Origin: Planctomycetia bacterium | GTDB lineage: Bacteria; Planctomycetota; UBA1135; UBA2386 | Assembly: GCA_005776475.1 (NCBI GenBank) | Contig: SXPB01000240.1 | Coordinates: 1-33,906, forward strand | Direction: 5' to 3' | DNA length: 33,906 nucleotides | Notes under the pieces: generated by a model | The model's input: only the letters and a program-made list of their open reading frames with translations | Told to the model about the DNA's origin: nothing | Database searches by the model: none | In this document: piece after piece, positions 27,063 to 33,290 of the stretch | How positions within the stretch are numbered: the stretch's first letter is position 1 | Layout: each line of letters starts with the position of its first letter | Position numbers and translations under genes: made by a program

Positions 27063-27632
27063 ATGACGCAGGACCTCGAAGCTCTGCTCCAAGCTGCGAG
27101 TCGGCACGACGGCCAGGCGGTCGCGACCCTCCTGCAGCAGCATCTGCCGGCCTTGCGCGCGTTCGTGCGGCTCAAGGCCGGACCGACGTTGCTGGCCAAG
27201 GAGTCGTGCAGCGACCTCGCGCAATCGGTCTGCCGCGACGTGCTGGAGAACGCCGACCGGTTCCGCTTCGGCGGCGAAGCCGAGTTCCGGAAGTGGCTGT
27301 TCACGACGGCGATGCGCAAGATCGCCGACCGCGCCGAGCACTGGCGGGCGGACAAACGCAATCCCGGCCGCGAGCGCGCCGGCCTCGACGAAGAAGAAGC
27401 CCAGGGCCTCGCCGGCATCTGGTCGCCGAGCGGACAGGCCGCTGCGCGCGAAGAACTGCAGCGCGTCGAGTCGGCGTTCGGCAAGCTGGCGCCGGAGAAG
27501 CAGGAAGTGATCCTGATGGCGCGGTTGATGGGGCTCACGCACACGCAGATCGCGCAGGAACTCGGCAAGACCGAAGTCGCGGTGCGTTCGATCCTGAGCC
27601 GCGCGCTCGCCGAACTGTCGGCGTTCCTGTGA
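27063..27632 (+). CDS. ECF-type RNA polymerase sigma factor
   Basis: A 189-residue sigma-70 family member of the extracytoplasmic-function group. Region 2 is visible (LRAFVRLKAGPTLLAKESCSDLAQSV, then FRKWLFTTAMRKIADRAEHWRADKR, about 78-102), and region 4 with its helix-turn-helix GLTHTQIAQELGKTEVAVRSILSRAL lies near the end. No anti-sigma factor gene is adjacent, a common arrangement in Planctomycetota. Its regulon cannot be told from this window. Confidence 0.93.
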   Translation: MTQDLEALLQAASRHDGQAVATLLQQHLPALRAFVRLKAGPTLLAKESCSDLAQSVCRDVLENADRFRFGGEAEFRKWLFTTAMRKIADRAEHWRADKRNPGRERAGLDEEEAQGLAGIWSPSGQAAAREELQRVESAFGKLAPEKQEVILMARLMGLTHTQIAQELGKTEVAVRSILSRALAELSAFL

Positions 27633-27635
27633 GCG

Positions 27636-27664
27636 GCGACCGGCGGGACGAACCCGCCGGTCGC
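27636..27664. terminator. Strong bidirectional terminator hairpin
   Basis: GCGACCGGCGGG and CCCGCCGGTCGC form a perfect 12-bp stem with a 5-nt ACGAA loop, between the convergent sigma factor and thioredoxin genes. It starts 4 nt after one stop codon and ends 8 nt from the other. There is no T-run, but position and perfection argue for termination of both transcripts. Confidence 0.75.
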
Positions 27665-27671
27665 GCTGGCA

Positions 27672-28841
27672 TCACTTCTTCTTGCCCTTCTCGGGCGCGG
27701 GCTTGTCGGCCGCGGGCTTGCCACCCTTCGCGGCGGCTTCGGCCTTGGCGATCAGCTCGTCGATCGCCTTCTCCATCGCGGCATCGTCACGGATGTCCTT
27801 GTGACGGATCACGCCTTCGTGATCGATGAAGTACAGCGTCGGCCAGGTCTGGACGCGCCAGGTCTCGCTGATCCGCGGCGTGCTGCCTTCGTCGCGGAAG
27901 CTGCGCCACGTCACGCCCATTTCCTTGGCCTTCGAGCGGAACGTGGCGAGGCCTTCGGTCGTGTCGGTGCCGTCACTGTTGACGCCCAGGAGTGCAAACG
28001 GCTTGTCTTTCAGTTTTTCCACGAGCGACCGCTCGTGCGGGATCATGCCCACGCAGGGGCTTCACCAGAATCCCCAGAAGTCGAGCAGGATGACCTTGCC
28101 CTGGTAGTCGCTGAGCTTGATCGCAGCGCCTTCCACGTCCACACCGACGATGTCGGGAGCCTTGCAACCGACCTGCAGGTTCTCGATCTCGAACAGCGCA
28201 TCCTTGGCCTGGGCCAGCAGCGCTTCGTCCTTCGTGATCGCAGCGATCGAACGCAGGTCCTTCTCGGCGGCCTTGCGCTCTTCGTCGTTCTGCGCCATCT
28301 CGAGCATCAGCCCGCCGCGCGTGATCAGCGCCTGCGCCTTGCACTCGCTGTTGGCGTGGTTCTCGGCCACGTCGCCGAGCAGGTCGAGCACCTGCTTCTT
28401 GGCGCCCATGCGGACGCCGCTGGCGAGGAACGGCAGCACGTCGGCGATCGCGTTCGACTTCGCGTGCATCAGGGCGAGCGTCTCGATCGTCTTCTTGACG
28501 GCGTTGCGCTCGTTCCGTGCGTTCTTCAGCACGAAGCCGAGGAAGCGCACGGCGTCGTCCGTGCCTTCGTATTGCGACGCCAGTTCCTGCGCCTTGGCGA
28601 CGTATTCCTTCGTCGGCGGGTTCATCGCGATAGCCGGGAGCTGCTTGGCTCCTTCGGCGCGCGCTTTCTCGGCCGCGGCTCGCGCCTCGGTCTGCCAATC
28701 GCTGATCGCCTTGTTGAAGGCTTTGACCAGCTCGTCGTAGGCCGCTTGCGGATCCTGCTGACCGACCGGAACGGCATCTTGCGCGATGGCAAATGTCGGC
28801 GGACACAGCAGGAACAGCGCGGCGAGAACAGTCCTCGTCAT
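27672..28841 (-). CDS. Secreted TlpA-like thioredoxin, candidate selenoprotein (in-frame TGA at 28064-28062)
   Basis: One continuous frame of 390 codons if the TGA at codon 260 is read through. ATG 28841 has AAGGA 5 nt upstream and a signal peptide (MTRTVLAALFLLCPPTFAIAQ). Residues 22-225 are a helical region. The redoxin domain starts VGCKAPDIVGVDVEG, with LSDYQGKVILLDFWGFW, then TGA, S, P, C, VGMIPHE. In TlpA/ResA proteins that site is WCxxC, so the TGA replaces the first redox cysteine (W-U-S-P-C, resolving C263). The cis-proline loop (TWPTLYFID) and the rest of the fold are intact after the TGA, and a lysine-rich tail ends the protein. A SECIS-like hairpin lies about 31 nt downstream (loop). 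Alternatives are a recent nonsense mutation or a sequencing error. Conventional annotation would give two fragments, 28062-28841 and about 27672-28052. Confidence 0.8.
28020..28037 (-). promoter_or_regulatory. Candidate bacterial SECIS hairpin
   Basis: In the transcript CACGAGC-GGUC-GCUCGUG is a perfect 7-bp stem with a GGUC loop, beginning 24 nt after the UGA (loop 31 nt after it). The E. coli fdhF SECIS loop, which SelB recognises, also carries GGUC, and bacterial SECIS loops usually have G near the 5' side. The spacing is longer than in fdhF (about 18 nt as I recall) but within the range seen among bacterial SECIS elements. This is a match by eye, not by folding software. Confidence 0.6.
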
Positions 28842-28959
28842 CGGGTTCCTTGGGTAACGGTTCACGGAATGCGAAGCGGATGCTACGAGCCACCCGCCGA
28901 ATCGGTGAGCCGGCCGCGGACTTTCCCGCCGCGCCCCAGCCGTACGCCCGTCCGATGGG

Positions 28960-30639
28960 CTATTTGCCGGGTCCGTTCACCGGCGCCTCGGCCGGAGCCG
29001 CCGCCTTCACCTTCACCAGGTCGGCGCGCGCCGGCTTCAGCTTGGCGAACAGCGCCTGGTCGATCACGTAGTACCACGGACCGAAGCGCTTGGTCAGCTT
29101 GTCGGCCTCGGCCTGGCCTTCCTTGACCTTGCCGTCGTACTCGGTCCAGGTGTCCGCCGTCTTCTTCAGCTCGTCTTCGAGCGGCAGGCGATCGCTGCGC
29201 ACGTCCATCGCGATGCCTTCGCCGCCCTCCACCTTGCCGTCCGCGAACGACACCACCGCGTAGGCGTCACCGACGACGACCAGCTGGTAGTCGTTGTCCC
29301 ACGGGTCCTTCTTCAGCTCGGCGAGCATGGCGTCGCCTTCGGCCGGCTTCTCGGTCAGCTTCGCTAGCGTCTCCGGCAACTTGTTCTCGTTCTTCGTGCG
29401 GAACGCCTCGACGGCGCGTTGGATCGCTTCGATCTGCGTGCGCGCTTCGGCGCGCTTGGTGAGCTGGTCGGCCGGCAACCGCGCGCCCGCGGGCTTCGTC
29501 AGCAAGTCCTCGGCGAACTCGGCGGTGACCATCAGGTAGCGGTTGTTGGCGGCCTTCGCCGGATCGCCTTCCTTCGGCTTCTCCGTCGTCGTCGCCGTGC
29601 CCGCCGACACCTCGTCGCCGTCACCCAGCACGAGTTCACCGAAACGCAGCGTGTAGCGCACGCCCTTCTTGGTCTCGAAGAACAGGTCGCCTTCGTTGCT
29701 GTAGAGCTTGCCATCGACGAGGAAGAAGCCCTTGCGGCCGAGCTCGTTCTGCAGGATCTGCTCCTCGATGCCGTTGGCGCGTTCGAGCCGCGCGGTCAGG
29801 CCCGGCGGCTTGCCGCGCACGCCGACGATCTTGATCTGGCCCAAGGTGTCGCCGATCTCGCGCAGCTTGTCCTCGTTGGGGTCTTCCTTGGTCGCATCGA
29901 TGCCGTCGAACGTCCACTTGCCGGCGTCGTCCTTGCGCAGCACGAACTTGTCGCCGCGCACGATCGCCTCGGCCAGCGTGCGGCCCTGCTCGTTGACCGA
30001 GTAGTTGTCGAAGATCACCTTGGCGATGTCCCACGACTGCGCCTTCAACAAGTCGGTCTCGATCCAGTCGGCGAACTTCGTCGACAGCTCGCCGTCGATC
30101 TTGGTCCGGTACACGCGCTTCTTGTCCGGCACGCGCACGTAGAACTCCTGCATCTTGCCTTCGACGGCCTTGCCGATGACGAGGTCGGCGAGCACGTTGC
30201 CGGCGCTGTCCTTCATCTTGATGCGCTTGCCGCGCCCCTTCGTCTCGGCGCTCGAATCGAGCGGATCGACCACGCCATAGTCGACGTGGCGACCCTTGAC
30301 GTCGCCGATCACCGACTGCTTGACGAGTCCGATCATCATCGCCGCCGCCTTGCCCATGCGGTCCTTGGCGTCCGCCGCATAGTTGCCGTGCGAGGGAATC
30401 GTCCAGCGGCCCTTGTCGTCGCGCTTGACGACGAACGGGTACGGCGCGCCCGCGGCTTCGCGGTACTCGACGACTTCGAGCTCGGTGACCGCCCCACCGT
30501 CCGTGAACGTGGGGAAGAACTGCTGCCCCTGGTCATCGAACGCATCGAGACGGACTTCGCGCGGCCCCATCGACAGCGCGAGCAACGACAAGCCGACGGC
30601 AGCACCGACGGCGATCCCGGTCATGGCAACCTGGTTCAC
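28960..30639 (-). CDS. DUF4340-type membrane-anchored protein with pseudopilin GspG-like domain
   Basis: A 559-residue protein. GTG 30639 has GGAGGT 5 nt upstream and overlaps the stop of the GldF-GldG gene by 4 nt. One N-terminal helix (about 6-23, TGIAVGAAVGLSLLALS) anchors an extracytoplasmic portion made of DUF4340-type repeats (YGVVDPLDSSAE, KWTFDG). From about residue 401 there is a stretch resembling the C-terminal half of type II secretion pseudopilins: AIQRAVEAFRTKNENKLPETL, KKDPWDNDYQL, and FADGKVEGGEG. The tail is rich in alanine, lysine and proline. DUF4340 proteins accompany Gld-type ABC exporters. Function is unproven. Confidence 0.85.
   Translation of the reverse strand: MNQVAMTGIAVGAAVGLSLLALSMGPREVRLDAFDDQGQQFFPTFTDGGAVTELEVVEYREAAGAPYPFVVKRDDKGRWTIPSHGNYAADAKDRMGKAAAMMIGLVKQSVIGDVKGRHVDYGVVDPLDSSAETKGRGKRIKMKDSAGNVLADLVIGKAVEGKMQEFYVRVPDKKRVYRTKIDGELSTKFADWIETDLLKAQSWDIAKVIFDNYSVNEQGRTLAEAIVRGDKFVLRKDDAGKWTFDGIDATKEDPNEDKLREIGDTLGQIKIVGVRGKPPGLTARLERANGIEEQILQNELGRKGFFLVDGKLYSNEGDLFFETKKGVRYTLRFGELVLGDGDEVSAGTATTTEKPKEGDPAKAANNRYLMVTAEFAEDLLTKPAGARLPADQLTKRAEARTQIEAIQRAVEAFRTKNENKLPETLAKLTEKPAEGDAMLAELKKDPWDNDYQLVVVGDAYAVVSFADGKVEGGEGIAMDVRSDRLPLEDELKKTADTWTEYDGKVKEGQAEADKLTKRFGPWYYVIDQALFAKLKPARADLVKVKAAAPAEAPVNGPGK
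29191..29439 (-). other. GspG-like segment inside the DUF4340 gene
   Basis: Codes for residues about 401-483 of the DUF4340 protein. Matches to the GspG pattern are an alpha helix QIEAIQRAVEAFR, LPETLAKL, KDPWDNDYQ (compare KDPWGNPYQY), and DGKVEGGEG (compare DGxxGGEG) in the order and spacing of the T2SS major pseudopilin. It lacks the pseudopilin's own N-terminal helix and leader. Assigned by eye. Confidence 0.6.
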
Positions 30640-33290
30640 TGGACACCTCCGTGGCCCGCGTGGGCCGATACCTTGCGATTCTGCGGAACGATCGCCGCGG
30701 CGCGCGAGTTGCGCCGGACGAACATGGCGACGGCGAGCAGCAGGGCCGGCGCCAGACAGAACACCATCGTGGTGAGCCGATAGGTCGAGTTGATGCCGCG
30801 CTTCGCGGCGTCGCGATCGTGCGTGGCCTCTTCGAGCTTGCGGCGCTTGGCCTCCTCGATCTTGGCCTTCTCGTTCTCGAACTTGCGGTTCTCGACCTGC
30901 TGCACCTCGACGATCTTGACCTCCTTGGCCTGCTCGTCCATCGAACCGTCTTCGCGGATCTTCTTGACCGCTTCGTCGAGACGGCCCTGGGCTTCGCCGA
31001 GCGCGCTCTGCGCCGCCACTTCGGCCGCTTCCTTGTCGGCAGTCCACTTCTCTTCGAAGGTGAGCTGCGCCTTCTCGACCGTCTCCAGCTTGCGCAGGAT
31101 CGGGCGCCGCTTGCGCAGTTCGATCAGGCTCTCGTCACCGGCCAGCGAGTCGATGCAGTTGAGCACGAAGGTGACGTTGTCGAACCGCAGGTTCGCGTCG
31201 ACCATGCCGCGGCGCATCTGGAAGAACGTGTTGCTGACCACGTCGAGGTCGGCGACGTAGATCACGTCGACGGCCTTCTGCTGCGCATCCACGGGCTTGC
31301 TGGTGACGCGGGTCGCCAGCACCAGCTCGCTGCGGCTGGGGATGCGGCGCGGGCTCGGGCTGAGCTGGGCGCCAGTGCCGAAGAAGTCGGGCTGGAACAG
31401 CGTTTCCTTCTTCACGATGCCGCACGCTTCGCGCGACACGGTCGGATCGGGCAGGCTCAGCAGCGTCTTCGTCGAGAAGCCGTCCTTCGCCACCGACTTC
31501 ACGTGGCCGCCGAGCAGGAACAACACGCTCTGCAGGCCGTTGGTGATCGCGCTGTCCTTGGCCATGCTGGTGCCGCGCAAGAACAGGCACCATTGCAGCC
31601 ACGGGTTCTCGGCGCCGAACGGGAAGCGGCGGTAGGAGTGGTCGTACGCCACTTCCGCGGTCGCCGGCGCGAGTGCGATCGCCGCCAGGAAGGCGGTGAA
31701 GTTGCCCTTCTGCGGGCCGCCACCACCCATCATGCGCGCCTGCATGCCGCCCTTCTGGTCGTCGGCCGCAGTGCCTGGCGCACCCATCGGCATCGGGTCC
31801 TCGAGCAGCAGCGTCGGGTTGCCGGCGAGCATCCAATCGCGCAGGCGATCCATCTGCTCCTGCTGCAGCGAACTCGGCTGCGGCACCACGAGGCACGCGA
31901 GGCCCTCGGGGTAGTCCTTCTCGGCGTCGACGTTCTCGAGCGCGTACTGCTGCTGCAGTTCGTCGGCGATGATCCAGCGCTGCTTCTGGCGGAAGGTCTG
32001 GAAGTCCATGCCGCCGATGAACTCGACGTCGGTCTTGAGGATGCCGATCTTCTTGCGGTTGGCGTTGGCAACGGTGCGGATGCTTCGCATCAGCTCGTAC
32101 TCGAGCGGCACGGCCGGCTCGACGAACGGCGTCACCACTTCCTCGGTGCCCGCCTGCACGACGAAACCGAGGAATATCTGCTTCTCGGCGATGCCGCCGC
32201 CGGGCAGCTCCATCTGCACGCCCATGGCGCGGATGCCGAAGTTGGCTTCGGCTTCGCGCGCTTCCGGCGAATACGGCTCCGGCATCTTGATGCTGGTCTC
32301 GACCGCGTTGCCGCCCAGCCGGTCGAACTGGCTGATCAGGTTGAGCAACAAGCTCTTCTGCTGCACGAACTGCTCCGGCACCTCTTCGCTGACGTACGCG
32401 GTCACGTAGACCGGACGTTCGCTGTCGAGGCCAGCGATCAATTTGCGCGACTCTTCGCCGAGACTGTGGATGCCTTCGATCGTCGCATCCGGCCGCGGCA
32501 ACGCATGCACGCCGATGAGCGTCAGCGCGAACGCGCAGACGGCGAACGCGCCCGACTGCACGATGCCGTGCACGCCGTCGACACCGCTGCGCCAGTGGCG
32601 GCGCGCCAGCAGGCACAGGCCGAGCCAGAAGAACGCCACGGTCATGCCGAGGAACAGCAGGATGCCGGAGAACGGCAGCTCGCCGCCGGCGAACAACCGG
32701 AACTGGCCGATCGGGCCGTTCACGTTCCAGCGCGAGACGCCGAGGTAGGGCGGCGCGAACAGGAAGGCGGCACACAACAGGACCGAGACGATCAGCGAAA
32801 TCGTCGCCGAGTTGCTGATCTGCGAACCGATGGTGCAGATCGCGACCAGCGTGATGCCGAACAACCAGTAGCCGATGTAGTTGGCGATCAACTGGCCCCA
32901 ATCCGGGTTGCCGAGGAACGTCAACGCGATCGGCAACACCAGCGTGAAGGCCAGCGACACGCTGTAGATCGCGACGTAGGCCACGTACTTGCCGAGCTGC
33001 AGTTCGAGGTCCGTCGCCGGCAGCGTGAACAGCAGTTCCTGCGTGCCGTTGGCACGTTCGCTGGTCCACATGCCCATCGTCGCCGCCGCGATGAACAGCG
33101 CCGAGATGATCGGGAACCACGCGTTGAGCGTGTCGAGGTTGGCGAGGTTGTTGGTGAAGAAGGCGCCCGTCCACATCATCGCCACGCAGGCGATGCCGAC
33201 GAACAGCATGATGAAGACGTAGCTGGCGGGGTTGCCGAACCAGCTGCGCAGGTCGCGTTTGGCGACGGCGAGGACGACGTTCTTGTTCAT
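30636..33290 (-). CDS. GldF-GldG fusion: ABC-2 permease joined to auxiliary domain
   Basis: An 884-residue inner-membrane protein. Residues 1-250 hold six hydrophobic helices of an ABC-2 permease (RDLRSWFGNPASYVFIMLFVG at 13-33, then WTSERANGTQELLFTLPATDLELQLGKY). From about 255 comes the GldG-type extracytoplasmic region (VYVTAYVSEEVPEQF, then LLLEDPMPMG) of the ABC_transp_aux family. A charged coiled coil follows (about 745-840) before a final helix (TTMVFCLAPALLLAVAMFV) near the end. GldF and GldG are separate proteins in Bacteroidota but fused here. It works with the ATPase encoded 11 nt upstream and the DUF4340 protein downstream as an exporter of unknown cargo. The start is MNKNVV at 33290. 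Confidence 0.92.
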   Translation of the reverse strand: MNKNVVLAVAKRDLRSWFGNPASYVFIMLFVGIACVAMMWTGAFFTNNLANLDTLNAWFPIISALFIAAATMGMWTSERANGTQELLFTLPATDLELQLGKYVAYVAIYSVSLAFTLVLPIALTFLGNPDWGQLIANYIGYWLFGITLVAICTIGSQISNSATISLIVSVLLCAAFLFAPPYLGVSRWNVNGPIGQFRLFAGGELPFSGILLFLGMTVAFFWLGLCLLARRHWRSGVDGVHGIVQSGAFAVCAFALTLIGVHALPRPDATIEGIHSLGEESRKLIAGLDSERPVYVTAYVSEEVPEQFVQQKSLLLNLISQFDRLGGNAVETSIKMPEPYSPEAREAEANFGIRAMGVQMELPGGGIAEKQIFLGFVVQAGTEEVVTPFVEPAVPLEYELMRSIRTVANANRKKIGILKTDVEFIGGMDFQTFRQKQRWIIADELQQQYALENVDAEKDYPEGLACLVVPQPSSLQQEQMDRLRDWMLAGNPTLLLEDPMPMGAPGTAADDQKGGMQARMMGGGGPQKGNFTAFLAAIALAPATAEVAYDHSYRRFPFGAENPWLQWCLFLRGTSMAKDSAITNGLQSVLFLLGGHVKSVAKDGFSTKTLLSLPDPTVSREACGIVKKETLFQPDFFGTGAQLSPSPRRIPSRSELVLATRVTSKPVDAQQKAVDVIYVADLDVVSNTFFQMRRGMVDANLRFDNVTFVLNCIDSLAGDESLIELRKRRPILRKLETVEKAQLTFEEKWTADKEAAEVAAQSALGEAQGRLDEAVKKIREDGSMDEQAKEVKIVEVQQVENRKFENEKAKIEEAKRRKLEEATHDRDAAKRGINSTYRLTTMVFCLAPALLLAVAMFVRRNSRAAAIVPQNRKVSAHAGHGGVQ

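Follow-up and report, generated by a model that had tools for sequence, protein, structure and literature searches.

Does a TGA codon inside a thioredoxin-like gene of an uncultured planctomycete end a protein, or does it encode selenocysteine (Sec, U)? The question is raised by contig SXPB01000240.1 of a Planctomycetia bacterium, a stretch of 33,906 nt (the window, to which all coordinates refer). Its minus strand carries a gene that runs from 28841 to 27672 as one ATG-to-TGA frame with a single internal stop and encodes 389 residues when that stop is read as U. We conclude that this gene almost certainly encodes a true bacterial selenoprotein, i.e., a putatively exported thiol-disulfide oxidoreductase of the TlpA/ResA type with a U-x-x-C active site. 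The internal stop corresponds to residue 260, in the context LLDFWGFW-U-SPCVGMIP. A first-pass annotation had claimed that a single frame puts this TGA (28064-28062) exactly where a TlpA/ResA domain has its first redox cysteine, and the translation and the domain matches across the TGA bear this out.

The read-through protein matches PF00578 with 61.6 bits (cut-off 26; 8.8e-17) and PF08534 with 50 bits (cut-off 26.6; 3.5e-13), both over residues 223-354 and both spanning the TGA. A sequence search of the PDB returned ResA structures (4nmu at 2.4e-17), and Foldseek comparison of the AlphaFold model with ResA gave target TM scores of 0.83-0.89, with mainly the thioredoxin domain covered. In the model, a strand (250-256) and a helix (261-276) flank residue 260. 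The active site consists of W-U-S-P-C and W-P-T, in which W259, residue 260, P262, C263, W333, P334, and T335 are invariant in the orthologue alignment. The protein combines an AhpC-TSA/Redoxin-type thioredoxin fold with a site of the W-C-x-x-C type (W-U-x-x-C here) and a cis-proline, the features that define TlpA/ResA-type proteins. Two narrower assignments were rejected: a score of 73.8 bits against a cut-off of 170 places the ResA-like fold outside the ResA subfamily NF002854, and the score for the WAxxUGC selenoprotein family NF041054 was 24.1 bits (cut-off 300), the motif here being USPC and not UGC. A Pfam search assigned the N-terminal helical domain to no family.

The GC-rich window contains 64 single-stop junctions (47 with TGA) between frames of 100 or more codons each, and we therefore dropped the open frame past the TGA as stand-alone evidence. 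Open frames alone are common in the window, but four features do exceed chance: the homology extends across the stop, the stop is precisely placed, it is conserved, and an RNA signal follows it. On these grounds the earlier argument that the TGA position is not random holds, whereas the part of it that appealed to frame continuity does not. Calling of open reading frames (ORFs) with translation table 11 splits the selenoprotein gene at the TGA, and many relatives would be split likewise. The separate listing of the ORFs 28062-28865 and 27672-28052 would suit two polypeptides, an N-terminal one that stops at the TGA and a C-terminal one initiated anew at a GTG further on. We nevertheless consider such a pair extremely improbable: the break, falling between strand 250-256 and helix 261-276, would disrupt a compact thioredoxin fold and deprive it of its active-site pair, and the exact conservation of the TGA and of the selenocysteine insertion sequence (SECIS) described below would be left unexplained.

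We compared the codon for residue 260 among relatives, the named ones being mostly metagenome-assembled genomes (MAGs) of Planctomycetota. Every one of the 13 orthologues with a locus (50-77% identity) carries TGA, and so do almost all of the closest paralogues; Cys (TGT/TGC) is specified by the same codon only in homologues further removed, in line with the expectation that the TGA would align with a Cys codon. Among 151 genomes of the order, the motif FW[G/A]xW-TGA-xPC was found in 127, its counterparts with TAA or TAG in none, and a reversed-pattern control also gave no matches; a selA match was found in 143. Across the phylum, 99 of the 392 genomes sampled contain the motif, and 92 of these have a selA match. 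Sec would thus be the normal state, not the exception, for the TlpA family in this uncultured order.

Comparison of the gene with its orthologues showed nonsynonymous divergence (pN) well below synonymous divergence (pS) on both sides of the TGA, with a tendency to be lower after it. The respective values (pN/pS) were 0.131/0.36 after and 0.132/0.34 before the TGA for orthologue L021, and 0.207/0.45 after and 0.357/0.51 before it for L033. This pattern indicates that purifying selection continues past the TGA, apparently with equal or greater strength, and the TGA at residue 260 itself appears to be maintained by selection. A pseudogene, or a sequencing or assembly error, would need only one base change to turn a Cys codon (TGC/TGT) into TGA, and the source genome is a fragmented MAG (5.2 Mb, 348 contigs, 75.65% complete; the window is its contig C222). 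We nonetheless give this explanation next to no weight, given that the TGA is shared by 13 orthologues in other genomes, that motif copies recur through the order but never with TAA or TAG, and that pN stays well below pS downstream.

The source genome encodes the full set of genes that characterizes a selenoprotein-producing bacterium. It contains a tRNA-Sec (75.5 bits, gathering score 47; ARAGORN anticodon TCA), a full-length selB (351.8 bits, cut-off 242), a selA in two contig-end pieces that jointly cover the whole model (positions 1-174 and 175-454), and a selD (357.7 bits) with its own in-frame TGA. The first-pass annotation had inferred Sec use from the gene alone and had named the absence of selA, selB, or selC as grounds for giving it up; all four genes were found, and together with the 13 TGA-containing orthologues, the lack of TAA and TAG variants in 151 genomes, and a bSECIS-type hairpin (see below) they support the inference. 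As a further observation, selD (L018, G000:C8:27713-28630) appears to be a selenoprotein itself, with the TGA in GSG-U-AAKLPPG.

We sampled further selenoproteins of the source genome through PF00578 only. It contains 17 such domains, six of which were flagged with an in-frame TGA: a TFV-U peroxiredoxin, a protein with FSESW-U-GPC, a two-TGA protein, a protein with HYG-U-LFC, a paralogue on contig C143, and the window gene. All TGA contexts inspected fall at redox positions. The frame would also be open if TGA were a sense codon throughout the genome (for Trp, as in code 4, or for Cys/Gly). This reading is scarcely credible, as the gene itself terminates at a TGA, its internal TGA aligns with Cys and not Trp, the selA/selB/selC/selD set and a context-specific hairpin are present, and the other TGAs inspected in PF00578 domains sit at redox Cys positions. 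Nonsense mutation, sequencing error, and reassignment to Trp or Cys are hence effectively excluded. Three of the flagged loci merit mention in their own right. Neighbouring PF00578 genes (L130/L138, G000:C190:112-1236) both have an in-frame TGA, one in a peroxiredoxin (DYTFV-U-ATEF) and one in a TlpA-like protein (FSESW-U-GPC); a thioredoxin-domain protein (L132, G000:C7:2004-2315 and flanks) carries in-frame TGAs both in U-GPC and then in GPG-U-PWC of a second domain, which makes it a candidate double selenoprotein; and an AhpC-like protein with HYG-U-LFC (L143, G000:C342:28594-28890) is a candidate UxxC selenoprotein.

A hairpin follows the TGA at 28037-28020. It has a perfect 7-bp stem that starts 24 nt after the TGA, a 4-nt loop GGUC (28030-28027) that starts 31 nt after it, and a folding energy of -11.9 kcal/mol (z -2.6). 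The published bacterial SECIS (bSECIS) model sets four constraints on such a hairpin, including a loop spacing of 16-37 nt, and the window hairpin agrees with all four in its loop, stem length, spacing, and energy (PMC13188914). An Rfam scan of the window reported no SECIS family and only a tRNA-Phe. An earlier table of 42 hairpin sequences was discarded as circular, its members having been chosen by the hairpin itself; we replaced it with Sec copies chosen by the peptide HERSLV (n = 43), with the expectation derived from the codons used in the rest of these genes. The exact codons CAC GAG CGG TCG CTC GTG occur in 41 of these 43 copies, with a single-base difference in each of the remaining two; the expected probability of the exact set is approximately 0.004 per copy, the copies being related and not independent. 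The 18-mer has exactly two matches in the 5.2-Mb source genome, i.e., in the window gene and behind the Sec TGA of the C143 paralogue, at the same distance.

It could also be that the gene is a Sec gene as proposed and that its hairpin mainly regulates translation, by UGA attenuation or selenium sensing, instead of acting as a plain SECIS. We regard this as very unlikely, if slightly less so than the other alternatives: the hairpin agrees with the bSECIS model in where it lies and how it is built, and no feature pointing to regulation turned up, although the two roles are compatible with each other. A second SECIS type, with its stem at +35 to +51 and compensatory changes on the two sides of that stem, is present in other paralogues, and 0 of 2000 shuffles, which ignore kinship, reached the observed pairing. 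This type was seen in L041, L043, L044, L071, L072, L074, L075, L077, L084, L095, and L096; its stem lies about 7 nt further downstream, and its loop (CGUG or GGUC) lies about 38 nt after the UGA, slightly beyond the published 16-37 nt.

A tree of 84 thioredoxin-domain stretches implies at least six changes between Sec and Cys. Two Cys homologues from Planctomycetota (L060 and L062) are placed as a pair within the Sec group, beside the window gene's orthologues (support 100/83, long branch), and encode HERQLV with other codons. This would fit, without proving it, an ancestor that lost Sec when its peptide had already been shaped by the SECIS, with HER-LV in drifted codons as a possible fossil. 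We lean slightly towards the broader view that, across the order, divergent Sec-TlpA paralogues (down to approximately 35% protein identity) share one 18-nt SECIS that fixes the peptide HERSLV, and that some Cys homologues keep its fossil. That the SECIS is nearly invariant among divergent paralogues in uncultured Planctomycetota, and also fixes the peptide, is the less expected part of this work; its many near-identical copies offer natural material for studying how an intragenic RNA signal constrains an enzyme. In an Armatimonadota genome and a relative (L068 and L069, about 3730), a Cys-type TlpA gene adjoins a TGA-type gene (FWAFW-TGA-SSC) with the hairpin GGAGCTC-GGT-GAGCTCC shortly 3' of its TGA.

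Several points weigh against assigning Sec to residue 260. The source selA is divided over two contigs by an assembly gap. The motif also occurs in six of the eight genomes of the order that have no selA match (completeness 56-80%), which missing contigs may explain; across the phylum the same holds for 7 of 99 motif genomes, mostly incomplete, and the lone motif in the complete genome G421 may be a chance match. Perfect co-occurrence of motif and selA was thus not upheld. The fold of the 51-nt region (-18.8 kcal/mol) is only moderately below that of shuffled sequences (z -1.5). The stem of the first hairpin type, that of the window gene, varies too little for base-pair covariation to be demonstrated, and codon invariance was used in its place. 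Finally, the case is a computational one: it establishes the frame, the Sec machinery, the fold, the conservation of TGA and hairpin, and continued selection on the protein beyond the TGA.

From these data we infer actual Sec insertion, export, the direction of electron flow, and the substrate. SelB would bind the hairpin 24 nt downstream of the UGA at 28064-28062 and deliver Sec-tRNA-Sec, and translation would proceed to the TGA at 27674-27672, which lacks a hairpin, and terminate there. In Cys-type ResA/TlpA proteins, the first redox residue is nucleophilic and the second is resolving. Sec260 would accordingly act as the attacking nucleophile and Cys263 as the resolving residue, and the two would probably form a Se-S bond while reducing disulfides or similar oxidized targets outside the cytoplasm. 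That the window protein reduces its targets is a guess by analogy, made because its ResA/TlpA relatives are reductants.

Table 1. Features of the selenoprotein locus and its neighbours in the window.
Feature	Position	Strand	Basis
Predicted selenoprotein gene, putatively exported TlpA/ResA-like thiol-disulfide oxidoreductase	27672..28841	-	Translation with TGA = U; PF00578/PF08534; orthologue alignment
Predicted Sec codon (TGA) of residue 260, the first of the two redox positions in U-x-x-C	28062..28064	-	Translation; TGA in all orthologues
TGC codon, putative resolving Cys263	28053..28055	-	Translation; invariant in orthologue alignment
True terminator, likewise TGA	27674-27672	-	Translation
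bSECIS-type stem-loop CACGAGC-GGTC-GCTCGTG	28020..28037	-	Folding energy; codon freezing; genome 18-mer count
Probable signal peptide, residues 1-21 (MTRTVLAALFLLCPPTFAIAQ)	28779..28841	-	Judged from sequence; pLDDT <50 for residues 1-27
N-terminal all-helical domain, residues 31-221	28179..28751	-	AlphaFold model, pLDDT mostly 82-96
TlpA/ResA thioredoxin-fold domain, residues 223-354, cis-Pro motif WPT at 333-335	27780..28175	-	Pfam; Foldseek to ResA
DUF4340 + T2SSG-domain protein, upstream neighbour	28960..31047 (start approximate)	-	Pfam; adjoins Sec gene in 13/13 orthologous loci
GldG-like ABC_transp_aux/ABC2 membrane protein	30636..33290	-	Pfam; also next in L050, L051, L053
ECF sigma factor gene, convergent, separate from selenoprotein	27063..27632	+	Pfam; common only to closest relatives

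Directly upstream of the selenoprotein gene, on the same strand, come the DUF4340/T2SSG-domain gene and then a GldG-like ABC transporter pair. The constant adjacency of the DUF4340 gene indicates that the 13 loci are true orthologues, and this gene and the Sec gene may be co-expressed. Between the convergent selenoprotein and sigma factor genes, a strong 12-bp GC inverted repeat (GCGACCGGCGGG-TTCGT-CCCGCCGGTCGC, 27636-27664) without a T run is possibly a terminator serving both.

As the first-pass annotation had noted, UxxC thioredoxin-like selenoproteins are already known: ocean metagenome surveys and reviews list those with PF00578 or PF08534 (PMC1088965, PMC2398784, PMC13188914), and the window protein adds to them. 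It falls within the family defined by PF00578 with U-x-x-C (PMC13188914), and shares with the Prx-like thiol:disulfide oxidoreductase selenoproteins (PMC13188914 Table 1; "Prx-like 1", PMC2398784) the family, the motif, the predicted redox role, and the dependence on a bSECIS. Compared by description, it differs from them in an extra helical N-terminal domain of approximately 190 residues and a nearly invariant, clade-wide SECIS. The same motif occurs in the Redoxin (PF08534) and thiol-disulfide isomerase-like (cd02966) UxxC selenoproteins (PMC13188914 Table 1); the window protein also matches PF08534, but with a lower score than PF00578. NF041054, the UGC-containing TlpA family, likewise places Sec in the redox motif of a ResA-like fold, although this motif is UGC in that family and UxPC here. 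Bacillus ResA (1st9, 4nmu) has the same thioredoxin fold at 24-29% identity, but uses Cys-x-x-Cys and lacks the helical N-terminal domain, whereas the window protein combines Sec-x-x-Cys with that domain. Within the phylum, selenoproteins have been reported from Planctomycetes P1 and P2 of the red alga Porphyra, which have Sec machinery and predicted redox selenoproteins in common with the source genome; the main text of that report names fdhA and fmdB (PMC4807772). The window gene thereby provides a securely supported selenoprotein, together with its insertion signal, for a phylum whose selenoproteins are little described in the literature searched.
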